This document shows positions 1 through 11,407 of a stretch of 64,000 bases of DNA, piece by piece (positions within the stretch are counted from its first letter, which is position 1; each line of letters begins with the position of its first letter). The translations under genes were made by a program, and so were the position numbers. Below the pieces are notes generated by a model, which saw nothing but the letters and a program-made list of their open reading frames with translations, did no database searches and was not told the origin of the DNA. Origin of the DNA: Desulfococcus multivorans (GTDB lineage: Bacteria > Desulfobacterota > Desulfobacteria > Desulfobacterales > Desulfococcaceae); assembly GCF_001854245.1 (NCBI RefSeq), contig NZ_CP015381.1:2205001-2269000 (forward strand), given 5' to 3'.

Positions 1-859
1 TACCGCCTTTTTAGGCATGCCGCTCTCGGACATCAGGGAAGGGGACGTCATCGATGCCGTGGTGGTCGACGCCTCTAAAATGGGCGGGTGCAAGCCGGGC
101 GACAGGGTCAAACTCTTTTTCATGGGAGAGGATAAGTGGATGGTCAAGCACCTGGACAGCGGCAACGCTGTCGACATTGTCACCGTCCACCAGAACGGAA
201 CCCTGAAGTTAGCCAAAACCGGAACCTACACACCGGCGACATCCGAAACCGCGCCGGCACCGACGACTTCGAATATGGATGACAGTCGGCATTTGACCGC
301 CGTATTCAAGGCCGGTGGCTACTTCCCCAACAACGATCTGGATGATTTTGATACGGGGTTCAACGCCGAACTTGCCTTGAACCGCTATCTTTCGCCTTAT
401 TTCGCCCTGGAAGCGAGCATCGGGTATGCCAACACCGACGACGCCGCAAACGGGAATTTTTACGCTGTCGTAAATAATGATGTTTACACGATTCCGGCCC
501 GAGCGGACGCCGACATTCATATCATCCCCGTAACGGCCAGTGCCAAGGGGGTGTTGCCGTTCAACCAGGGGGAGGTTTACCTGGGCGGGGGCCTGGGGGT
601 ATATTATGTTTATGGGGATTTTGATATCCAGGTTGCCGGTTTTGAAGTTACCGCCGACGACCATGATGCCGTTCTCGGTGCGCATATTGTGGCGGGGTTG
701 AATATCAACATCGATAAAAGGGTGTTCCTCGGTATCGAGGGAAAGCGTATCTTTACGGATGAAGCGGAGTTAAGCGATACCATCGAAGATATTCCCATCG
801 AGGCGGAATTCGACCTGAACGGCTACACATTGACGGGTCAGATCGGATACCGATTTTAA
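1..859 (+). CDS. Outer-membrane beta-barrel protein, 5'-truncated by window edge
   Basis: The frame is open from base 2 with no stop upstream of the first ATG (17), so the gene very likely begins before the window. About 80 residues with a small beta-rich, SH3-like look (GDVIDAVVVDA, GDRVKLFF) come first, then a Pro/Thr/Ala linker near residue 75. The remainder resembles an eight-stranded OmpW/OmpA-type barrel: alternating hydrophobic strands, many Tyr and Gly, and a final strand ending GQIGYRF. That C-terminal Phe is the usual signal for outer-membrane assembly. The role is probably a small-molecule channel or a structural surface protein. The family assignment is inferred from pattern only. 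The gene ends just before a heptamer repeat hairpin. Confidence 0.65.
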   Translation, partial: TAFLGMPLSDIREGDVIDAVVVDASKMGGCKPGDRVKLFFMGEDKWMVKHLDSGNAVDIVTVHQNGTLKLAKTGTYTPATSETAPAPTTSNMDDSRHLTAVFKAGGYFPNNDLDDFDTGFNAELALNRYLSPYFALEASIGYANTDDAANGNFYAVVNNDVYTIPARADADIHIIPVTASAKGVLPFNQGEVYLGGGLGVYYVYGDFDIQVAGFEVTADDHDAVLGAHIVAGLNINIDKRVFLGIEGKRIFTDEAELSDTIEDIPIEAEFDLNGYTLTGQIGYRF

Positions 860-871
860 TCCCGGCCTTGT

Positions 872-981
872 TGAAGGCTGAAGACTGAAGGCTGAAGACT
901 GAAGACTGAAGGCTGAAGGGGATAAAGGCACTGGCTGTGGCCCTCGCATCCCTTCAGTCTTCAGCCTTCAGCCTTCAGCCT
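872..981. repeat. Heptamer-array hairpin (family R7)
   Basis: Degenerate tandem 7-mers GGCTGAA/GACTGAA run forward at 872-919. The same units run in reverse complement (TTCAGYC) at 951-981, separated by about 31 bp. The two arrays can pair as a long imperfect stem. It lies between the beta-barrel gene and the aro promoter. The same family recurs at more than a dozen places in the window. Confidence 0.9.
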
Positions 982-1015
982 CTCGAATTTTTTCCTGGGA
1001 CCCCCAACAAAAAGC

Positions 1016-1044
1016 TTGACACCCTCAAACGGTTCCCGTAAACA
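1016..1044 (+). promoter_or_regulatory. Candidate sigma-70 promoter of the aro operon
   Basis: A perfect -35 hexamer TTGACA (1016-1021) is followed after 17 bp by TAAACA (1039-1044), a weak -10. It lies 55 bp upstream of the leader-peptide ATG and directly after the repeat hairpin. The assignment rests on sequence match and position only. Confidence 0.5.
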
Positions 1045-1098
1045 GAGACAGTATTGCATTTTTTGTAAGTTATCATCAAAAGAGGATTATATACTTAA

Positions 1099-1176
1099 AT
1101 GAACCCCTATGCCGGCAGCGTGTATTATTTCTGGTTTTATTTTTACGGCACCGCACGTCTGCCTGGGGTTCGCTGA
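1099..1176 (+). CDS. Aromatic leader peptide (attenuator control peptide)
   Basis: A 25-codon open frame starts at ATG 1099, with AGAGG about 13 bases upstream, and stops at TGA 1174. Residues 9-16 read YYFWFYFY, eight consecutive aromatic codons covering Tyr, Phe and Trp. Another Tyr is at position 4. Such runs of codons for the pathway's end products are the hallmark of leader peptides that control operons by ribosome stalling. It precedes a competing terminator/antiterminator and the DAHP synthase gene. The peptide itself probably has no function after synthesis. The frame is too short for routine gene finding and is likely unannotated. Confidence 0.75.
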   Translation: MNPYAGSVYYFWFYFYGTARLPGVR

Positions 1177-1239
1177 GGTATACACACACATAACGAAGCG
1201 AAAGAGCCGAGGGCAGACCCGCCCGCGGCTCTTTTTTTT
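1157..1239 (+). promoter_or_regulatory. Transcription attenuator: antiterminator and intrinsic terminator
   Basis: The terminator is AGAGCCG (1203-1209) pairing with CGGCTCT (1226-1232), extended inside by GGGC (1211-1214) with GCCC (1221-1224), and followed by eight T (1232-1239). A competing pairing exists: GTCTGCC (1157-1163) is the exact complement of GGCAGAC (1212-1218), which lies inside the terminator stem. A ribosome stalled on the aromatic codons (1123-1146) would leave 1157-1163 free to form the antiterminator. A ribosome that reaches the leader stop at 1174 would cover it and allow termination. The mechanism is inferred from the classic trp/phe attenuation model. Confidence 0.75.
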
Positions 1240-1243
1240 ACTT

Positions 1244-1285
1244 AAAAAGGCCGCGGGGAGAAAAAAACATCCCGGCGGCCTTTTT
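1244..1285 (+). terminator. Second hairpin with T-run ahead of aroF
   Basis: AAAAAGGCCGC (1244-1254) pairs perfectly with GCGGCCTTTTT (1275-1285), giving an 11-bp stem that ends in a T-run. It lies only about 15 bases upstream of the aroF ribosome-binding site. It could be a second terminator in series with the attenuator, or a stem that affects initiation. No competing antiterminator was found for this one. Confidence 0.55.
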
Positions 1286-1315
1286 CGTTTCCTTAACCCA
1301 AAAGGAGACCCGACT

Positions 1316-2440
1316 ATGAGCCCCGAAATGCAGCGCACCTACGATGTCCGCGTCAAGGAATTCGTCCCCCTGCTGCCGCCCCAGGCACTGAAGGAGGAGA
1401 TTCCCATCAGCTGGACGGCCGGCGACACGGTCATCGCCGGACGGAAGGCGATCGAGCGCATCCTGCACAAGGAGGATCCCCGCCTTCTGGTGATCACCGG
1501 CCCCTGTTCCATCCACAACGAGGAGGAGGCGCTCGAGTATGCCGAACGGCTGAATGCCCTGCGGGAGGCCGTTTCGGAAACCCTGTGCATCGTCATGCGC
1601 GTCTATTTCGAAAAACCCCGCACCAACGTGGGCTGGAAAGGCATGATCAACGATCCTTACATGGACGGTTCCTGCGACATTGTCGAGGGCCTCAGAAGGG
1701 CGCGGCGCCTCCTCCTGAAGATCACCGAGATGGGGATGCCCACGGCAACGGAAATGCTCGATCCCATTTCGCCCCAATACATTGCGGGACTGGTCTGCTG
1801 GTCGGCCATTGGGGCCCGCACCACGGAATCCCAGACCCACCGCGAGATGGCCAGCGGCCTTTCCATGCCTGTCGGGTTCAAGAACTGCACCGACGGCGGC
1901 TTGACAACGGCGGTGAACGCCATGATCGCGGCGGGGAGCCCGCAGAGTTTCCTGGGCATCGATGCCGACGGCAGAAGCGCCGTCGTCAAAACCACCGGGA
2001 ATCAGTACGCCCACATCGTTCTGCGGGGCGGACGTCGACCCAACTACGATTCGGTCAGCATCCGGGAGGCCGTGGACCAGCTCCGGGCGAAAAACCTTCT
2101 GGAGGCCATCATCGTCGACTGTTCCCATGCCAACTCCAGCAAGAAATACCAGAACCAGGCCCGGGTGTGGCAGGACTGCATCAACCAGCGCCTGGACGGC
2201 AACGACGCTATTGTGGGCCTCATGCTGGAAAGCAACCTCCGAGAGGGGAACCAGAAACTGACCGACGACCCGTGCAGGCTGGCCTACGGCGTATCCATCA
2301 CCGATGCGTGCATCTCCTGGGAAACCACCGAGGCTCTCATCCGATCCGCCCACGAACAGCTTCTGCGTTCCCGCCGGGGAAATTCGGGGGACGCGGCCCT
2401 TTCGGGGAACGGACGCTACAAAGTCGCCGTGACGGCCTGA
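1316..2440 (+). CDS. aroF: 3-deoxy-7-phosphoheptulonate (DAHP) synthase, class I
   Basis: Condenses phosphoenolpyruvate and erythrose 4-phosphate in the first, feedback-regulated step of the shikimate pathway. The start ATG 1316 is chosen because AAAGGAGA lies 8 bases upstream; the open frame runs further up through the attenuator. At 374 residues it is the size of the AroF/G/H family. Motifs seen include GPCSIHN, KPRTNVGWKG, GARTTESQTHRE, DCSHANSSK and SNLREGNQ. The usual FKNGTDG loop reads FKNCTDG, a mild variation. aroB follows after 21 bp. The paralogue letter (F, G or H) cannot be decided from sequence, so the symbol is nominal. Regulation is probably by the leader attenuator. Confidence 0.95.
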   Translation: MSPEMQRTYDVRVKEFVPLLPPQALKEEIPISWTAGDTVIAGRKAIERILHKEDPRLLVITGPCSIHNEEEALEYAERLNALREAVSETLCIVMRVYFEKPRTNVGWKGMINDPYMDGSCDIVEGLRRARRLLLKITEMGMPTATEMLDPISPQYIAGLVCWSAIGARTTESQTHREMASGLSMPVGFKNCTDGGLTTAVNAMIAAGSPQSFLGIDADGRSAVVKTTGNQYAHIVLRGGRRPNYDSVSIREAVDQLRAKNLLEAIIVDCSHANSSKKYQNQARVWQDCINQRLDGNDAIVGLMLESNLREGNQKLTDDPCRLAYGVSITDACISWETTEALIRSAHEQLLRSRRGNSGDAALSGNGRYKVAVTA

Positions 2441-2461
2441 CGCCCGGACCAGGAGCATTCC

Positions 2462-3496
2462 ATGAAAACCCTTCACATTCACGGCGGCACCGGCGATTCG
2501 ACCCTCAGGGTGGGAGAGTCTTTCTCTCACCTTGACCAATACGTACCCGTCGATCGAACGGTCATCATCACCGACCCTGCCGTCAGGGCGCTTTACGGCG
2601 ACAGGTTCCCCGACTGCCCGATCATCGAGATCGGCATCGGCGAGCGCAACAAGACCCTCAAGACCGTGGAATTCATATATGAACGCCTGATCAAAATGGC
2701 GGCGGACCGGTCCACCTGGATCGTCGGCATCGGCGGCGGCATTGTCTGCGACGTGGCGGGATTCGTCGCTTCGACATACTTGCGGGGGGTTCAATTCGGC
2801 TTCGCGCCCTCGACCCTGCTGGCCCAGGTGGACGCCGGCGTCGGCGGCAAGAACGGCGTCAACTTCGCCGGGTACAAGAACATGGTGGGAACCTTCAACC
2901 AGCCCGCCTTTGTCATCTGCGACATGGAGATGCTCAAGACCCTGTCCCGGGCGGACCTTCTGTGCGGGTTCGCCGAGATCGTCAAGCACGGCGCCATCGC
3001 CGACCCGGCCCTCTTCCGGTACGTTGAGGACCGCCGGCAGGACGCCCTGGCCCTCGAGCCGGCCGTGGTCGAACGGATGGTTTACGACGCCGTCGTCGTC
3101 AAGGCGAATATCGTCAACCAGGACGAACGGGAGGGCGGCGTTCGGCGAAAGCTCAATTTCGGCCACACCTTCGGCCACGCCGTGGAAAAGGTCACGGGCG
3201 TTCCCCACGGAGAAGCCGTGAGCATCGGCATGGCGGTGGCCGGTCTGCTGTCGGTTCGCCGCGGGTATCTGGGCCAAACGGATCTCCAACGGCTGACGGA
3301 TCTTCTCGAGGCCCTCGAGCTGCCCACCCGCCTTGACGTGGATCCGCAACAGGCACTGGACGCCCTGAAGCGTGACAAGAAGCGGTCGGGGGACCACATC
3401 AAGTTCGTGCTGCTGAAGGCCGTGGGCGAGGCGGTTGTCGAGGATATCCGGATATCGGAGCTGGAGGAGGTGCTGCATGAGCGCTCCCGGGATTGA
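2462..3496 (+). CDS. aroB: 3-dehydroquinate synthase
   Basis: Converts DAHP to 3-dehydroquinate using NAD and a divalent metal, the second shikimate step. The 344 residues show the nucleotide-binding GIGGGIVCDVAGF segment, the STLLAQVDAGVGGKNGVN segment, the metal-ligand region GFAEIVKHG and the paired histidines of NFGHTFGHA. It starts 21 bp after aroF and overlaps the pheA start by 20 bp, so the three genes are probably one transcript with translational coupling. Confidence 0.96.
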   Translation: MKTLHIHGGTGDSTLRVGESFSHLDQYVPVDRTVIITDPAVRALYGDRFPDCPIIEIGIGERNKTLKTVEFIYERLIKMAADRSTWIVGIGGGIVCDVAGFVASTYLRGVQFGFAPSTLLAQVDAGVGGKNGVNFAGYKNMVGTFNQPAFVICDMEMLKTLSRADLLCGFAEIVKHGAIADPALFRYVEDRRQDALALEPAVVERMVYDAVVVKANIVNQDEREGGVRRKLNFGHTFGHAVEKVTGVPHGEAVSIGMAVAGLLSVRRGYLGQTDLQRLTDLLEALELPTRLDVDPQQALDALKRDKKRSGDHIKFVLLKAVGEAVVEDIRISELEEVLHERSRD

Positions 3497-4574
3497 CGTC
3501 GATCCCCGGATCGACGACCGTCGAAAGGCCATCGACGCCATTGACGATCAGCTCCTGGAGTTGATCAACGAACGGCTTCGCCTGGTCATGGACGTCGGCA
3601 GAATCAAGGCCGAACAGGGGCGGCAGGTGCTCGACAGCTCCCGGGAAAGCCGGATCTTCGACCGTCTGCTCAGCCGGAACCGCGGGCCCCTCGATGAAAA
3701 GGTGCTCATCCACCTGTTCACCCAGATCATGGCGGCCTCGCGGCAGCTCCAGCGGCCCCAGCGGGTCTCTTTCCTGGGCCCCGAGGCGACCTTCACCCAC
3801 ATCGCGGCCATGAACCATTTCGGCCCCTCCGTGGAATACGCGCCGCAGCCGAGCATCCGCGACGTGTTCCGGGATGTGGAGAAGGGCGAATCCCACTACG
3901 GGCTGGTGCCGGTGGAGAACTCCATCGAGGGCGCGGTCAACCACACCCTGGACCTGTTTTTCGAGTCCGAACTCAAGATCTGCGCCGAGCGGTACCTTCA
4001 GATCTCCCACGATCTCCTGTCCAGGGCGGGCGGCCTCAAGGCGATCAGGACCGTCTATTCCCACCCCCAGGCCCTGGCCCAGTGCCGGATGTGGCTCCAG
4101 AAATACCTTCCCGACGCCGTGCTGAAGGAATGCAACAGCACCGCCCGAGCCGCCCAGAAGGCCGCGGAGATCGAAGGCGCCGCCGCCGTGGCCTCCAGGG
4201 AGGCGGCCCAGATGTACCAGCTCGCCGTGGTGGCCTCCCGCATCGAGGACGTGGCCCGCAACACCACCCGGTTCCTGGTCATCGGCCGGGACGCGGTGCA
4301 CCGCACCGGACGGGACAAGACATCCATGATGTTCGTCACCTCCCACGTGCCCGGGGCGCTTTACAAGGTTCTCAAGCCCATGTCCGACGCCGGCCTCAAC
4401 ATGGTCAAGCTGGAGTCTCGCCCCACCAGGCACGAGAACTGGAGCTACTTCTTCTTCGTGGACGTGGAGGGGCACATCGAGGATGCGGCGGTGAGCGAAA
4501 CCCTGGAGGGGATGAAGAAGCTTTGCCTGTATTTGAAGCATCTTGGGTCGTATCCGAAGGCGAGTGAGGGGTGA
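3477..4574 (+). CDS. pheA: Chorismate mutase/prephenate dehydratase (P-protein)
   Basis: Bifunctional enzyme that turns chorismate to prephenate and then phenylpyruvate for Phe synthesis. The start ATG 3477 follows GGAGGAGG inside the end of aroB; an upstream in-frame ATG (3435) lacks a site. Of 365 residues, about 1-90 form an AroQ-type chorismate mutase (IDAIDDQLLELINERL). Residues 95-275 are prephenate dehydratase (SFLGPEATFTH, VPVENSIEGAVNHT, NTTRFLVIG). Residues 285-360 are an ACT domain with the Phe-binding ESRP motif, so feedback inhibition by Phe is expected. The last residues (SEG) lie next to the heptamer repeat. Confidence 0.96.
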   Translation: MSAPGIDVDPRIDDRRKAIDAIDDQLLELINERLRLVMDVGRIKAEQGRQVLDSSRESRIFDRLLSRNRGPLDEKVLIHLFTQIMAASRQLQRPQRVSFLGPEATFTHIAAMNHFGPSVEYAPQPSIRDVFRDVEKGESHYGLVPVENSIEGAVNHTLDLFFESELKICAERYLQISHDLLSRAGGLKAIRTVYSHPQALAQCRMWLQKYLPDAVLKECNSTARAAQKAAEIEGAAAVASREAAQMYQLAVVASRIEDVARNTTRFLVIGRDAVHRTGRDKTSMMFVTSHVPGALYKVLKPMSDAGLNMVKLESRPTRHENWSYFFFVDVEGHIEDAAVSETLEGMKKLCLYLKHLGSYPKASEG

Positions 4575-4579
4575 AGAAG

Positions 4580-5081
4580 AAAGGCTGAAGGCTGAAGACT
4601 GAAGGCTGAAGGAGGGGGCGTGCGGGATCATCGGAAGTTGCGGGCATTTGAGTTGGCGGATGAAGTGACGGTATTGGTATATCGGATCACGCGAAAATTT
4701 CCGAAGGAAGAGATGTTCGGGTTGACCTCCCAAATACGTCGGGCTGCGGTTTCAGTTCCATCCAACATCGTGGAGGGTTGTGCTCGTGACAGCCAAACCG
4801 AATATGTGCGATTTCTGAATATCGCTTTTGGATCACTGAGAGAACTGAGTTATCAACTCAATTTGTCAAACCGCCTGGGATATTTGAGTTCCAAAGATTA
4901 TGCCATTCTTGAACCGATCGTTGTGGAAACTGAAAAAGTCCTGAACGGCCTGATCCGTGCATTTCGAAAAACGGGTAATAAAGCAGGCTGACAACTAAAG
5001 GCTGAAGGCTGAAGACTGAAGGCTGAAGGAGGGGGCGTGCGGAATCATCGGAAGCTATGGGCATTTGGATTGACGGATGAC
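4580..5081 (+). repeat. Direct repeat pair (85 bp, offset 417 bp) around the four-helix-bundle gene
   Basis: Bases 4580-4664 recur at 4997-5081 with few mismatches. Each copy has the heptamer array, the AGGAGGGGG ribosome-binding site, the GTG start and the first codons of the four-helix-bundle gene. The 417-bp offset equals one array-plus-gene unit, so this looks like a tandem duplication whose second copy has lost most of the gene. The whole insert splits the aro operon between pheA and aroE. Confidence 0.85.
4620..4991 (+). CDS. Four-helix bundle protein (23S rRNA intervening-sequence/S23 family)
   Basis: A 123-residue, all-helical protein of the S23/IVP family first described in intervening sequences of 23S rRNA genes; Avd of diversity-generating retroelements has a related fold. 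Family marks are the RKLRAFELADEV start, FPKEEMFGLTSQIRRAAVSVPSNIVEG and the FLNIAFGSLRELSYQL helix. Biological function is unknown; the fold forms pentameric rings in known members. Start GTG 4620 has a strong AGGAGGGGG site. Both signals are inside the repeat. It sits on the same strand within the aro operon and is probably co-transcribed. There is no rRNA nearby, so this is a stand-alone copy. Confidence 0.85.
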   Translation: MRDHRKLRAFELADEVTVLVYRITRKFPKEEMFGLTSQIRRAAVSVPSNIVEGCARDSQTEYVRFLNIAFGSLRELSYQLNLSNRLGYLSSKDYAILEPIVVETEKVLNGLIRAFRKTGNKAG

Positions 5082-5093
5082 CCTATTTTGTAA
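5037..5093 (+). pseudogene. Truncated second copy of the four-helix-bundle gene
   Basis: A GTG at 5037, again preceded by AGGAGGGGG, opens a frame starting MRNHRKLWAF, closely matching the MRDHRKLRAF start of the gene 417 bp upstream. Similarity is lost after about 14 codons, and the frame stops at TAA 5091. It is best read as the stump of a duplicated cassette. It could still be translated into an 18-residue peptide. Confidence 0.7.
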
Positions 5094-5122
5094 CGCACGT
5101 TGAAAAATATCAGGCTCAAAAA

Positions 5123-5155
5123 CCTTCAGTCTTCAGCCTCCAGCCTTCAGCCTCA
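5123..5155 (-). repeat. Reverse-oriented R7 heptamer array before aroE
   Basis: CCTTCAGTCTTCAGCC-type units lie just before the aroE start, opposite in orientation to the two arrays at 4580 and 4997. Together they could form long-range hairpins enclosing the four-helix-bundle unit. Confidence 0.8.
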
Positions 5156-5164
5156 GTGAGAGTT

Positions 5165-5989
5165 ATGGATATCGATACCAATACGCGCCTCTACGGCATT
5201 TTTGGACACCCTGTGGCCCACAGTCTCTCGCCGGCCATGCACAATCGGGCCTTTGCGGCGATGGGATATAACGGGGTTTATCTGGCATTCGACGTTGCCG
5301 ACATCGGAGCGGCCGTTGACGGGGGAAGAGCCCTGGGTCTTGGGGGATGGAGCATTACTATTCCCCACAAGGTGGCCGTGATGCCGCTGTTGGACGAGGT
5401 GGACCCGGTTGCCCGGAACATCGGCGCCGTCAATACGGTGGTGAACCAGGGGGGGCGATTGATGGGGTACAATTCGGACGGGTTGGGGGCGGTGGCCGCC
5501 TTGACGGAGAAGTGCGTCGTCGAGGGGCGGTCGGTGGCCGTGATCGGCGCCGGCGGCGCGGCAAGGGCCATCGCCTTCTGTCTCAAGGCGGCAGGCGCGC
5601 GGATCACCATCGTGAACCGGTCGATCGACCGGGGGGAGGCCCTGGCCCGGGACCTGGACGTGCCGTTCCTGCCTCTTGCGGAATTCAGCAAGCCCGTGTA
5701 CCATGTCCTCGTCAACACCACGGCGGTGGGCATGACGCCCCTAACCGACGCCGTGCCGGTGGACGAGCGGATGCTCGTGCCGGAAATGACGGTCATGGAC
5801 ATCGTTTACAATCCCCTGAAGACCCGATTGCTGAAGACGGCCGCCCGGAGAGGCTGCACCGTTGTGGACGGCGTCGCCATGTTCGTCTATCAGGGGGCGT
5901 TTCAGTTCGAATGCTGGACCGGTATGAAGGCGCCCGTCGCCCTCATGCGGGACACCGTGATGAACCTGTTAGGGAAGAGAGATGATTGA
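5165..5989 (+). CDS. aroE: Shikimate 5-dehydrogenase
   Basis: NADPH-dependent reduction of 3-dehydroshikimate to shikimate. The 274-residue protein shows the substrate-binding start GIFGHPVAHSLSPAMHN, the IPHK lysine motif, the dinucleotide-binding GAGGAARAIAF and NRS, and the C-terminal GVAMFVYQGAFQFECW. Start ATG 5165 is preferred; GTG 5156, three codons upstream, is possible and neither has a strong site. It overlaps the aroA start by 8 bp. It was probably continuous with pheA before the cassette entered at 4575-5155. Confidence 0.94.
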   Translation: MDIDTNTRLYGIFGHPVAHSLSPAMHNRAFAAMGYNGVYLAFDVADIGAAVDGGRALGLGGWSITIPHKVAVMPLLDEVDPVARNIGAVNTVVNQGGRLMGYNSDGLGAVAALTEKCVVEGRSVAVIGAGGAARAIAFCLKAAGARITIVNRSIDRGEALARDLDVPFLPLAEFSKPVYHVLVNTTAVGMTPLTDAVPVDERMLVPEMTVMDIVYNPLKTRLLKTAARRGCTVVDGVAMFVYQGAFQFECWTGMKAPVALMRDTVMNLLGKRDD

Positions 5990-7247
5990 AATCACACCGG
6001 TGACATCCGTCACGGCCGAGGTGAACGTGCCCGGCTCCAAGAGCTACACCCATCGCCTGCTTATCGCGGCAGCCCTTGCCGAGGGCCGATCCACTATTGA
6101 AAACATGCTGGAAAGCGAAGACACCCTCCTGACCCTTACGGCCCTGGAGCGGATGGGCGTCGTCACGGCCGTGGAAGGGGGCCGCCGCGTCGTTAACGGC
6201 ACGGGCGGGCGGCTGACGGCCGGAGACACGATCCACCTCGGCAACTCCGGCACCTCGGTGCGGCTCCTCACGGCGGTGGCCGCCCTCACCGACGGCATAA
6301 CCGTCCTCACCGGCACGCCGAGGATGCAGGAACGGCCCGTGGCGGACCTGCTGGACGGACTCCGGCAGATCGGGGTTTCGGCGGTCTCCCTTGCCGGAAA
6401 CGGATGCCCCCCGATCCAGGTGGACGGCGCGCCGCTTGCCGGCGGCGTCGTGAACCTGAAATGCGGGGTGAGCAGCCAGTATCTCTCGGGCATCCTCCTG
6501 ATCGCGCCGCTCTCCGCCGACGGCGTGGAGATCCGCATCTTGGAGGGCCCTGTCTCCAAGCCCTACATCGACATGACCGTGGATGTCATGGCACGCCTGG
6601 GGATTGCAGTGGAGCGGGAAGGGTACGAACGCTTTTTCGTCCCCGGGCGGCAGGCATATCAAGCAGGCGATTACCGGGTGGAGACGGACATCTCCAACGC
6701 GAGCTATTTCTGGGCGGCCGCGGCGGTCACCGGCGGGCGCGTCAAGGTCCGGGGCGTCAGCCGGGACTCCCGACAGGGCGACATCCGGCTCCTGGACTGC
6801 CTGGAGCGCATGGGCTGCGCTGTTCACCCGGACGGCGACGGTATCGCGGTCTCGGGCGGACGGCTTACCGGCATCAGCGTGGACATGTCCGACATTCCCG
6901 ACATGGTGCCGACCCTCGGCGTGGTGGCCGCATTTGCCGACGGCGTGACCGAGATCCAGAACGTGGCCCACCTGAGGGCCAAGGAGTGCGACCGGCTTGC
7001 CGCCGTGGCAACGGAGCTTTCCAAGATGGGGATCGACGCCCGCTGCACCGAGGACGGGCTCCGCATCAAAGGCGGCGTCCCCCAGGCCGCCGTCATCGAC
7101 ACCTACAACGACCACCGCATCGCCATGGCCTTTTCCGTGGCCGGGTTGAAAACCCAGGGAGTCCGGATCCTGGGCGAGGCATGCGTGGAAAAGTCCTTTC
7201 CCACCTACTGGGAGGCCTTCGGGACGCTTTATGTCAATGCGGATTGA
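5982..7247 (+). CDS. aroA: 3-phosphoshikimate 1-carboxyvinyltransferase (EPSP synthase)
   Basis: Transfers the enolpyruvyl group of PEP to shikimate 3-phosphate. The 421-residue protein has the phosphate-binding GSKSYTHR near the N-terminus, GNSGTSVRLL, the central SSQYLSGILLIAP, the DIPDMVPTL segment, LRAKECDRLAA and NDHRIAMAFSVAGL. ATG 5982 follows GAAGAGAG and overlaps the aroE end. aroC follows after 15 bp, so both are in one operon. Confidence 0.96.
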   Translation: MIEITPVTSVTAEVNVPGSKSYTHRLLIAAALAEGRSTIENMLESEDTLLTLTALERMGVVTAVEGGRRVVNGTGGRLTAGDTIHLGNSGTSVRLLTAVAALTDGITVLTGTPRMQERPVADLLDGLRQIGVSAVSLAGNGCPPIQVDGAPLAGGVVNLKCGVSSQYLSGILLIAPLSADGVEIRILEGPVSKPYIDMTVDVMARLGIAVEREGYERFFVPGRQAYQAGDYRVETDISNASYFWAAAAVTGGRVKVRGVSRDSRQGDIRLLDCLERMGCAVHPDGDGIAVSGGRLTGISVDMSDIPDMVPTLGVVAAFADGVTEIQNVAHLRAKECDRLAAVATELSKMGIDARCTEDGLRIKGGVPQAAVIDTYNDHRIAMAFSVAGLKTQGVRILGEACVEKSFPTYWEAFGTLYVNAD

Positions 7248-7262
7248 CGGAAAGGATCGATA

Positions 7263-8357
7263 ATGTCCAGTACCTTCGGCAACGTGTTCAGGGTCGCCAC
7301 GTTCGGGGAATCCCACTGCAAGGGGGTCGGCGCGGTCGTGGACGGCTGCCCGCCGCAGATTCCCCTGAGCGAGGCGGATATCCAGGCCCAGCTCGACCGC
7401 CGGCGCCCCGGTCAGGGGAAGATCACCACCGACCGCCGGGAGAGCGATACGGTCGCCATCCTCTCGGGGGTGGAAAACGGCCTGACCCTGGGCACCCCCA
7501 TCGGGCTCCTGGTGCCCAACCGGGATCAGCGGCCGGGAGACTATGCGGAGATGCGGAACATTCCCCGGCCCTCCCATGCCGATTACACCTACCAGATGAA
7601 ATACGGCATCCGGGCCGCCAGCGGCGGCGGCCGCGCCAGCGCCCGGGAGACCATCGGCCGGGTGGCGGCAGGGGCCGTGGCCGAGAAGTTCCTCTCCCTG
7701 GCCTGGGGTGTCGAGATCGTCGCCTGGGTGAGCGGCGTGGGCGAGCTGTCCGCACCGGCGCCGGATCTCGGGACCATCACCCGGGACATGGTGGATCAGG
7801 CCCTTGTCCGCTGCCCCGACCCCGCCTCCGCCGGGCAGATGACCGAGATCATCCTGGCGGCCCGGGAGGCTGCCGACTCCATCGGCGGGGTGGTCTCCTG
7901 CGTCTGCCGGAACGTCCCCCCGGGCTGGGGCGAGCCCGTCTTCGACAAGCTCGAGGCCCGGCTGGCCCACGCCATGCTCTCCATCCCCGCCGTCAAGGGC
8001 TTCGAGATCGGATCGGGCTTTGCCGGCGCCCGGATGCGCGGATCGGCCCACAACGACCCCTTTGTGTTGAGGGGCGGGCAGCTCCGAACCCGAACCAACT
8101 ACAGCGGCGGGATCCAGGGGGGGATCTCCAACGGCGAGCCTGTCTGGTTCCGGGTGGCCTTCAAGCCCCCGGCCACCATCGGCCGTGCCCAGGAAACGGC
8201 CGACTTTGACGGGAATCCCGCCGTTCTGGCGGCCAAGGGGCGCCATGACCCCTGCGTGGTGCCCCGGGCCGTGCCCATTGTGGAGGCCATGGCGGCCCTG
8301 GTTCTGGCGGACACGGCTCTGATCCAGGCCGGTCGTGCCGCGGGGTTTCCGGGATGA
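7263..8357 (+). CDS. aroC: Chorismate synthase
   Basis: Makes chorismate from EPSP using reduced FMN. The 364 residues carry the family signatures [30 protein letters not shown] and [16 protein letters not shown], and the C-terminal [25 protein letters not shown] precedes ATG 7263. The end overlaps the aminotransferase start by 4 bp (ATGA type), which indicates translational coupling. Confidence 0.97.
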
Positions 8358-9499
8358 GACTTTCCAGACGCATCGAGGCTGTCGAGGCCTCCCGCACCGT
8401 TCGGTTCACCGCCCTGATCGAGCGGCTCCGCAGCGGGGGGCGGGACATCGTCAATTTTGCCGTGGGCGAACCTGAATTCCCCACCCCCGACGCGATCGTC
8501 GCCGCCACCCAGGCGGCCCTGGCCCGGGGAGAGACCCGGTACGGCCCGGTGGCCGGCATGGCCCGCCTCCGGTCGGCCGTCGCCGAATCCTTCGCGGGGT
8601 GGGGTCCCGAGAACATCCTTATCGCCAACGGCTCGAAGCAGATTCTCTACGGCCTCTTCCAGGTGCTTCTGGACCCCGGCGACGAGGTGATTCTGCCCAA
8701 CCCCCACTGGGTGAGCTTCTCCCAGCAGATCCGCCTGGCCGGAGCCTGTCCGGTGATGGTGGATACACACCGCCATCAGCTCGATCGCCGGGCCATTGCC
8801 GCGGCCGTGACGCCCCGAACCCGCGCCATCCTGGTCAACTCTCCCAACAACCCCACGGGCGCGGTATACCCCCCACAGGACCTGGCATGGATCGCCGACC
8901 TGGCCCGTGAGCGGGACCTCTGGATCATCGCGGATGAGGCCTACGCCTTTTTCGTGTATGACAACCTCGATCACCACAGCCTTTTCGCGTATGAAGCCAT
9001 TCGGGACCGCCTCATCGTCGTCCGGAGCTTCTCCAAAAGCTTCAGCATGACCGGATTCCGGGTGGGCTACGGCGCCGGACCCGAACCCCTCATCCGGGCC
9101 CTCGGCAAACTCCAGAGCCACCTCACCGGAAACGTCTGCACCTTTGCCCAGCACGGGGCCCTGGCAGCCATGGATCTGGACCCGACGGTCGTTCAAAAGT
9201 GGCGGGGCGAGCTGGCGGAAAAAAGGGACATCGCCCATGAATACGCCGCAAGGCTGTTCACCTGCGTCCGCCCCCAGGGCGCGTTCTACCTCTTCCCCGA
9301 CATCTCGGCCCGGCTTCAAAAAGGTGAAACCGCCGAGGACTTCGCCGCCGCCCTCCTGGAAAAGACCGGCGTAGCCGTCGTCCCCGGCGAAGCCTTCGGC
9401 GCCCAAAACCACATCCGAATCTCCTACGCCGTGCCGAAAGAGACGCTGGTGGAGGGGTTCGAGAGGATGGAAAAGGCGCTGCTTGAGGCTGAAGGCTGA
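8354..9499 (+). CDS. PLP-dependent class I/II aminotransferase, probably aromatic
   Basis: A 381-residue fold-type I aminotransferase. Motifs are [25 protein letters not shown] and the PLP-lysine segment [15 protein letters not shown]. It overlaps aroC by 4 bp and precedes tyrA. A role in transaminating phenylpyruvate/hydroxyphenylpyruvate, or prephenate directly, is therefore likely. Aspartate specificity cannot be excluded from sequence. The final residues LEAEG and the stop are encoded by a heptamer array, so the original C-terminus may have been altered by repeat insertion. Confidence 0.88.
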
Positions 9500-9796: not shown

Positions 9797-10351
9797 ATGA
9801 ACTGCAAATCCTTTGAAGACTATTACGAGGACCTTCAGATCAGCCCCAACGCTGATTTCGAAACCATCGAGCGCGTTTACCGGCTGCTGGCCAAGCGGTA
9901 TCATCCCGACAACCGAAAAACCGGCAGCATCGAGAAATTCGAAGCGCTGACCCATGCTTACAACGTATTGAAGGATCCGGAAAAACGTGCCGCCTACGAT
10001 GTGTCGTACGAGCAGCGAAAGGCGCACGTGTGGCGAACACTCTCGGAAAGTGCGCCGGCGGAGGATTGGGATGACGACCAGGCCATCCGCAACCGGATTC
10101 TCTCGGTGCTCTATGTCGACCGGCGTGAGAATAACGACCATTCCAACGTGGGCCTGTGGCATCTCGAAAAGCTGACGGGATGGCCGGAAAAGGTTCTGGA
10201 ATTTCACGTCTGGTACTTGAAGGAAAAGGCCTGGATCCAGCGGACCGACAACGGCGGCTTCGCCATCACCGCCGCCGGCGTCGACGTGGTGGACCAGAAG
10301 GGCCTGATGCCCCCCAGAAACCGCCTGCTGACGGACGGGAGGGCAGGCTGA
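9797..10351 (+). CDS. J-domain (DnaJ-type) co-chaperone with C-terminal winged-helix-like domain
   Basis: A 184-residue protein. Residues 5-75 are a J domain (YYEDLQISPNADFETIERVYR, HPD motif in YHPDNRK, FEALTHAYNVLKDPEKRAAYD) that should stimulate an Hsp70 ATPase. Residues 95-170 (RNRILSVLY ... LEKLTGWPEKVLEFHVWYLKEKAWI ... GFAITAAGVDVV) look like a winged helix. The stop codon lies in a heptamer array. It is separated by repeats from both neighbours, so membership in the aro operon is uncertain. The partner Hsp70 and client are unknown. Confidence 0.85.
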   Translation: MNCKSFEDYYEDLQISPNADFETIERVYRLLAKRYHPDNRKTGSIEKFEALTHAYNVLKDPEKRAAYDVSYEQRKAHVWRTLSESAPAEDWDDDQAIRNRILSVLYVDRRENNDHSNVGLWHLEKLTGWPEKVLEFHVWYLKEKAWIQRTDNGGFAITAAGVDVVDQKGLMPPRNRLLTDGRAG

Positions 10352-10660: not shown

Positions 10661-11407
10661 ATGATTGGAATTATCGGATTCGGACGGTTCGGCAGGCTTA
10701 TGGCCGGGTATCTGGCCAAGGATTACACGGTATACGTCTACAACAGGAGCGACAAGGCCGAGCAGATCTCGGAGATCGGTGCCGTCCCGGCGGATATGGC
10801 CCAGGCTGCCGGCCAGCGGGTGGTCATCCTGAGCGTCCCCATATCCCGGATGGCGGATTTCCTGAAGGAGATCGCGCCGTTGGTCGTCCCCGACGCCGTG
10901 GTGGTGGATGTCTGCTCGGTCAAGGTCTACCCGGTCCAATGGATGACGACGCTGCTGCCGCCTTCCGTCGACATCCTGGCGACCCACCCCATGTTCGGTC
11001 CGGACAGCGCGGCCACATCCCTCCTGGACCGGAAGATCGTCCTCTGCAAAACCCGGATCTCCGACGCCCGCTACGACAAGATCAAGTCCTATCTCAAGGC
11101 CCGGGGGCTGGTCGTCATCGAGACGACTCCCGAGGAGCACGACCGCCAGATCGCCATGAGCCTCTGCCTGACCCATTTCATCGGCCGGTCCCTGGAGGCC
11201 TCGGGCACGGGCGAGCTCATCATCGACACCGAGGGGTACAAACGGCTCCTCCACATCCTGGAAGTCGTCACCCACGACACCTGGCAGCTGTTCGTCGACA
11301 TGAACCGCTACAATCCCTACGCGGAAAAGAGCCGGCGCGCTTTCATGGATGCGATGAAGACGATCGAGGAACGATTGAAAAAGGACAGGCTGAAGACTGA
11401 AGGCTGA
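10661..11407 (+). CDS. tyrA: Prephenate (or arogenate) dehydrogenase
   Basis: NAD(P)-dependent oxidative decarboxylation towards tyrosine. The 248-residue protein has the Rossmann start IGIIGFGRFGRL, the VDVCSVK segment and the catalytic-histidine motif THPMFGPDSA. It is short, with no chorismate mutase or ACT domain. Prephenate versus arogenate specificity cannot be read from sequence. The last residues, RLKTEG, run into a heptamer array, which supplies the stop. Confidence 0.9.
   Translation: MIGIIGFGRFGRLMAGYLAKDYTVYVYNRSDKAEQISEIGAVPADMAQAAGQRVVILSVPISRMADFLKEIAPLVVPDAVVVDVCSVKVYPVQWMTTLLPPSVDILATHPMFGPDSAATSLLDRKIVLCKTRISDARYDKIKSYLKARGLVVIETTPEEHDRQIAMSLCLTHFIGRSLEASGTGELIIDTEGYKRLLHILEVVTHDTWQLFVDMNRYNPYAEKSRRAFMDAMKTIEERLKKDRLKTEG

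Follow-up and report, generated by a model that had tools for sequence, protein, structure and literature searches.

The leader RNA of aroF in Desulfococcus multivorans is likely a trp-type ribosome-mediated transcription attenuator, which would gauge the charging of tRNA-Tyr and tRNA-Phe (the run also has a single Trp codon) and act as a single switch for two tandem intrinsic terminators. This reading is preferred because leader and terminator are conserved and because the antiterminator strands of one locus pair better with each other than with strands swapped in from other loci. The hallmarks of a trp-type attenuator, namely an upstream short open reading frame with codons for products of the pathway, an intermediate intrinsic terminator and a mutually exclusive antiterminator that is conserved or covaries, are all present, and the coupled second terminator is a more unusual feature of the locus than the mixed aromatic run. 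The window, i.e., the whole 64,000-nucleotide stretch that was analysed (contig NZ_CP015381.1, positions 2,205,001 to 2,269,000), contains the following features, numbered from its first letter:

1016-1044, plus strand: putative sigma-70 promoter, predicted from sequence (TTGACA 1016-1021, spacer of 17 nt, TAAACA 1039-1044)
1081-1086, plus strand: predicted leader Shine-Dalgarno AGAGGA, 12 nt 5' of the leader ATG
1099-1176, plus strand: leader peptide reading frame, putative translation MNPYAGSVYYFWFYFYGTARLPGVR (ATG 1099, TGA 1174-1176)
1101-1123, plus strand: strand 1 (GAACCCC 1101-1107 and GGCAGCGUGU 1114-1123), pairs with strand 2 and so encloses the stall codons
1153-1171, plus strand: strand 2, with the 5' strand of the antiterminator at 1157-1163; alternatively pairs with strand 1
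1200-1239, plus strand: terminator 1 (3:4 hairpin and U-tract); strand 3 includes GGCAGAC 1212-1218 and strand 4 includes CCCGCGGC 1222-1229
1222-1257, plus strand: alternative 4:5 hairpin, CCCGCGGC 1222-1229 with GCCGCGGG 1250-1257 and CUUUUU 1231-1236 with AAAAAG 1244-1249, -23.1 kcal/mol
1244-1290, plus strand: terminator 2 (5:6 hairpin 1244-1285 and U-tract), 3' of terminator 1 and 5' of the aroF ribosome-binding site, -26.6 kcal/mol
1302-1307, plus strand: aroF Shine-Dalgarno AAGGAG
1316-2440, plus strand: aroF, class I DAHP synthase (Pfam PF00793, TIGR00034 aroFGH)
2462-3496, plus strand: aroB
3435-4574, plus strand: pheA (chorismate mutase-prephenate dehydratase-ACT)
4620-4991, plus strand: 23S-IVP-family gene, four-helix (PF05635), between pheA and aroE
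5156-5989, plus strand: aroE
5982-7247, plus strand: aroA
7263-8357, plus strand: aroC
8354-9499, plus strand: aminotransferase gene
10661-11407, plus strand: tyrA, further downstream than the gene series 2462-9499

An earlier note on this DNA had placed an attenuator ahead of a DAHP synthase and the common aromatic pathway, which is borne out by the conserved leader and terminator and by the gene order aroF-aroB-pheA-aroE-aroA-aroC; judging from their spacing, the genes behind aroF (2462-9499) are probably co-transcribed. The closest named record for aroF belongs to a Desulfococcus MAG (84 percent). The putative promoter was absent from a strict promoter scan owing to its weak -10 element, and the motif TTGAC-N16-18-TAnnnT occurs at the corresponding upstream place in 18 of 104 leaders, among them the sister locus L005, where mononucleotide shuffles would give 0.8. 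The alignment of AroF homologues begins near position 1316, and an open frame at 1109-2440, which extends aroF in frame through the leader RNA, was dismissed as an artefact of ORF calling; the same frame could make gene callers add a false 69-residue N-terminal extension to AroF. Among further observations in the region, a gene for a protein of the 23S rRNA-intervening-sequence type (PF05635) is embedded within the aromatic gene cluster, and the gene at 9797-10351, located 3' of the aminotransferase gene and 5' of tyrA, has a beginning like that of a J-domain protein (assigned by eye). Units of the GGCTGAAGACTGAAG type form intergenic arrays at 872-985, where they make up a long inverted repeat as they often do, and at about ten other places; the window holds 11 such clusters and a 2.06-Mb portion of the genome 61, so that they constitute a dispersed low-complexity intergenic repeat.

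The earlier note had proposed aligning the upstream regions of aroF orthologues and folding the leader. AroF orthologues were collected from named contigs and by order, class and phylum searches, and once near-duplicates had been dropped 153 upstream regions remained, 128 from Desulfobacterota and 25 from other phyla. An aromatic-run leader was found at the same place in 108 of the 128 distinct Desulfobacterota loci, and it is this recurrence of the same kind of run at the same place that lifts it above chance. A bare composition filter was passed by 3/25 loci of other phyla, none of them with the Desulfobacterota layout. The leaderless Desulfobacterota loci include diverged aroF paralogues (e.g., L008-L010 and L189-L193); in same-family genomes (L008, L009), a second, diverged aroF without an aromatic leader lies about 2 kb from the first. 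A terminator follows 3' of the leader stop codon in at least 106 of the 108 leaders, nearly always about 20-28 nt past the stop.

The regulatory run YYFWFYFY of the window occupies leader codons 9-16 (1123-1146), with UGG at 1132 as the only Trp codon. Over the 108 leaders, the core comprises 461 Tyr, 333 Phe and 47 Trp among 962 residues, and Phe and Tyr are mixed in all but two (106/108); as such mixed runs are nearly universal, shortage of either amino acid should derepress. The earlier note had gone further and suggested that the leader could sense all three aromatic amino acids, of which the Phe/Tyr part stands, while the Trp part fares less well. A true OR sensor, in which the Trp codon would count on equal terms, is conceivable but doubtful: aroF belongs to the common pathway to all three amino acids, one UGG lies inside the window run and Trp occurs in 46/108 leaders, yet it is absent from the other 62, its slot is often taken by another NGG codon (Arg CGG or AGG, Gly GGG), and the genome has separate WWW attenuators for trpE and a second DAHP synthase. 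Nor was Trp content associated with whether a DAHP synthase under Trp control is present (Fisher p 0.46), and the idea that Trp in the aroF leader compensates for a missing isozyme of this kind was rejected for that reason. The single Trp codon of the window leader may add some sensitivity to Trp. The two Trp-only leaders of the genome precede trpE and the second, B. subtilis-type DAHP synthase:

L002 1037-1129 and L198 1166-1285, minus strand: WWW leader peptides and tandem terminators, ahead of the second DAHP synthase and of trpE

The first part of the aroF switch had been recognized correctly: the leader frame at 1099, the YYFWFYFY run, the terminator and the pairing of 1157-1163 with 1212-1218 were all found in place. 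The leader region folds far better than its shuffles (z -7.2, 0/200 equally good), and the hairpin of terminator 1 (1200-1235, U-tract 1230-1239) reaches -24.6 kcal/mol. GTCTGCC at 1157-1163 is the exact 7-bp complement of GGCAGAC at 1212-1218, and this 2:3 pairing and terminator 1 are mutually exclusive, as the earlier note had suggested in proposing that the pairing breaks the terminator. Own 2:3 partners yield -21.1 kcal/mol versus -18.3 kcal/mol for permuted ones (p 2e-4, with kinship between loci ignored), and the duplexes have a mean z of -3.0 against shuffles. Fold counts discriminate weakly (2:3 in 105/105 folds observed versus 80 expected), and minimum free energy folds were rejected as proof on their own, since shuffles yield 2:3 in about 80/105. 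A long 1:2 hairpin (1101-1123 with 1153-1171), which had been missed, has exactly the aromatic codons as its loop, and strand 1 also matches its own strand 2 (own-versus-swapped permutation p 2e-4). With the usual footprint, a ribosome whose A site is at codons 9-15 sits on strand 1 while strand 2 (from 1157) stays accessible, and one that has reached the stop codon (1174) occludes strand 2, which fits the proposed geometry of a stop codon, though not the stall codons, lying over the antiterminator strand.

Terminator 2 had been overlooked, and there is exact complementarity between its 5' arm and the 3' arm of terminator 1. The resulting 4:5 hairpin joins this 3' arm and its U-tract to the 5' arm of terminator 2 and its A-tract, and it is not itself a terminator because no U-tract follows. 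Of the 108 aroF leaders, 48 have a second hairpin, always placed alike, about 60-72 nt past the leader stop; since no second terminator was detected in the other 60, it is dispensable. Own strands 4 and 5 of the aroF leaders pair at -19.3 kcal/mol versus -17.5 kcal/mol when permuted (p 5e-5, inflated by relatedness), and loci were therefore also paired along edge-disjoint paths of gene trees, giving 36 phylogenetically independent pairs; own partners come out ahead in 25 of them (sign test p 0.014, Wilcoxon p 0.008), and no gene set taken singly reaches significance in the sign test on such pairs (aroF p 0.08). At the first variable position, an A in strand 4 is matched by U in strand 5 in 9/9 loci, and a G in strand 4 almost always by C or U. 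In the window, L006, L012, L152, L153 and L140/L141/L148, it is strand 5 and not strand 3 that keeps in step with strand 4: strand 3 of the window carries a mismatched A and strand 5 the matching C, the sister loci L152 and L153 have CCCACGGC/GCCGTGGG and CCCTGCGGC/GCCGCAGGG, and L140, L141 and L148 have in common a G-C pair missing from strand 3. Pairing is poor in a few loci (L014, L050, L184), one clade has a common mismatch (L037/L042/L047), and fold counts again discriminate weakly (4:5 in 42/48 versus 24 expected). The covariation of strands 4 and 5 is moderate but consistent. Both WWW leaders of the genome likewise have two terminators each and 4:5 complementarity, and the Trp attenuators as a set favour own partners (-16.8 versus -14.5 kcal/mol permuted, p 5e-5). 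In relatives, two hairpins were seen in the W-rich leaders found ahead of trpE and in most W-rich leaders ahead of the second DAHP synthase, and the two-terminator plan reaches TrpE sequences just 50-55 percent identical elsewhere in the phylum.

The second hairpin could instead be an uncoupled fail-safe terminator that cuts leakage constantly, with 4:5 merely reflecting a GCCG...CGGC motif common to all these GC-rich terminators. We consider this unlikely, even though terminator 2 resembles terminator 1 in sequence, is absent from most aroF leaders and also pairs well across species (the -17.5 kcal/mol of swapped partners), because a strong uncoupled terminator would block the operon in starvation as well, strands 4 and 5 of one locus fit each other better than strands from different loci do, independent pairs included, and random hairpin arms of the genome rarely pair equally well with strand 4 (median 1 percent, aroF). 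Tandem terminators as a general habit of the genome were rejected too, as a heuristic search of 2.07 Mb (46% of the 4,455,399-base genome), in which a few pairs may be missed, found no strong tandem pair (each hairpin below -19 kcal/mol, short spacer) beyond the three aromatic attenuators.

For the coupled attenuator, we infer from the leader, the two hairpins, their conservation and the covarying 2:3 and 4:5 complementarity how ribosome stalling, the kinetic order of folding and the efficiencies of termination would act together. In fed cells, the ribosome would reach the stop codon at 1174 and cover strand 2, so that 3:4 makes terminator 1, and polymerases that escape would face terminator 2 (5:6), which could form since 3:4 locks strand 4. 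In starved cells, a ribosome stalled in the aromatic run would cover strand 1 and leave strand 2 free, 2:3 would pair before strand 4 is synthesized, and the unpaired strand 4 would capture strand 5 (4:5) before synthesis of strand 6, so that both terminators would fail to form and transcription would run on into aroF and the genes behind it. Terminator 2 would thus reduce leakage in fed cells, and under starvation the stall that disarms terminator 1 would remove it too. Folds of the window with a stalled ribosome give 2:3 once strand 3 is made and, for transcripts that end at 1258-1262, 2:3 with 4:5; placing the ribosome on the stop codon yields 3:4 and then, at full length, 3:4 with 5:6. The full-length equilibrium fold prefers 3:4 with 5:6 even when the ribosome is stalled, hence the order of synthesis, i.e., folding kinetics, must decide, as in known attenuators. 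It is highly improbable that the leader controls translation or mRNA stability of aroF rather than transcription termination, since each hairpin carries the kind of U-tract that is characteristic of intrinsic terminators and, in the strongest folds, the aroF ribosome-binding site is paired with neither of them, although the second hairpin ends 17 nt 5' of the aroF Shine-Dalgarno.

With somewhat less assurance, we lean towards the view that across much of Desulfobacterota the aromatic attenuators form a six-strand relay, in which one stall would disarm two consecutive terminators and repression in fed cells would be multiplied without a cost to induction. If coupled, the terminators would give a tight off state, as read-through fractions multiply, yet one stall would open both. 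This would show how entry to aromatic amino-acid synthesis is controlled in a phylum whose regulation is little studied, with a mixed Tyr/Phe attenuator for one DAHP synthase and Trp attenuators for another and for trpE, all of them with coupled double terminators. The coupled pair would also represent a design principle that is portable and open to testing, as well as a candidate for an RNA family that Rfam lacks.

No Rfam leader family (such as Trp_leader) matched at E up to 1 in window positions 1-6000, L198, L200, L011 or L028, where the only Rfam matches were to microRNA, snoRNA and sRNA families and were set aside as chance, and the T-box covariance model had no match in window positions 1-6000. 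In the open-access literature, nothing was found on attenuators of Desulfobacterota or on coupled tandem terminators in amino-acid leaders, and coupled double terminators of amino-acid attenuators have apparently not been described before. The WWW leaders of trpE and the second DAHP synthase share two terminators, six strands and 4:5 complementarity with the aroF leader, while their codons are Trp-specific and their operons different. Leader-peptide attenuation itself is textbook knowledge, and enterobacterial attenuators of the trp and pheA type have in common with the aroF leader a leader peptide with regulatory codons, the 1:2, 2:3 and 3:4 pairings and a stop codon over strand 2; the aroF leader differs from them in its mixed Phe and Tyr (and Trp) run before a common-pathway DAHP synthase, in its second terminator with 4:5 and 5:6 and in matching no Rfam leader family. 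Multivalent leaders are known from ilvGMEDA, where one leader carries codons for several related amino acids of the pathway, so that the earlier statement that classic leaders sense one amino acid was too strong; like the aroF leader, it has codons for several related amino acids, whereas these are branched-chain and it has one terminator. The nearest double-terminator precedent is erm(K) of Bacillus, for which a leader peptide and two adjacent Rho-independent terminators are described (Kwak et al., 1991, cited in PMC4335068). As far as that description goes, the likeness is one of layout: both have two adjacent intrinsic terminators after a leader reading frame, whereas erm(K) is induced by macrolide stalling, encodes a resistance (ribosomal RNA) methylase and is unrelated in sequence and phylum. 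The aroF leader is hence erm(K)-like in layout but not a member, as it controls aroF and not a methylase.
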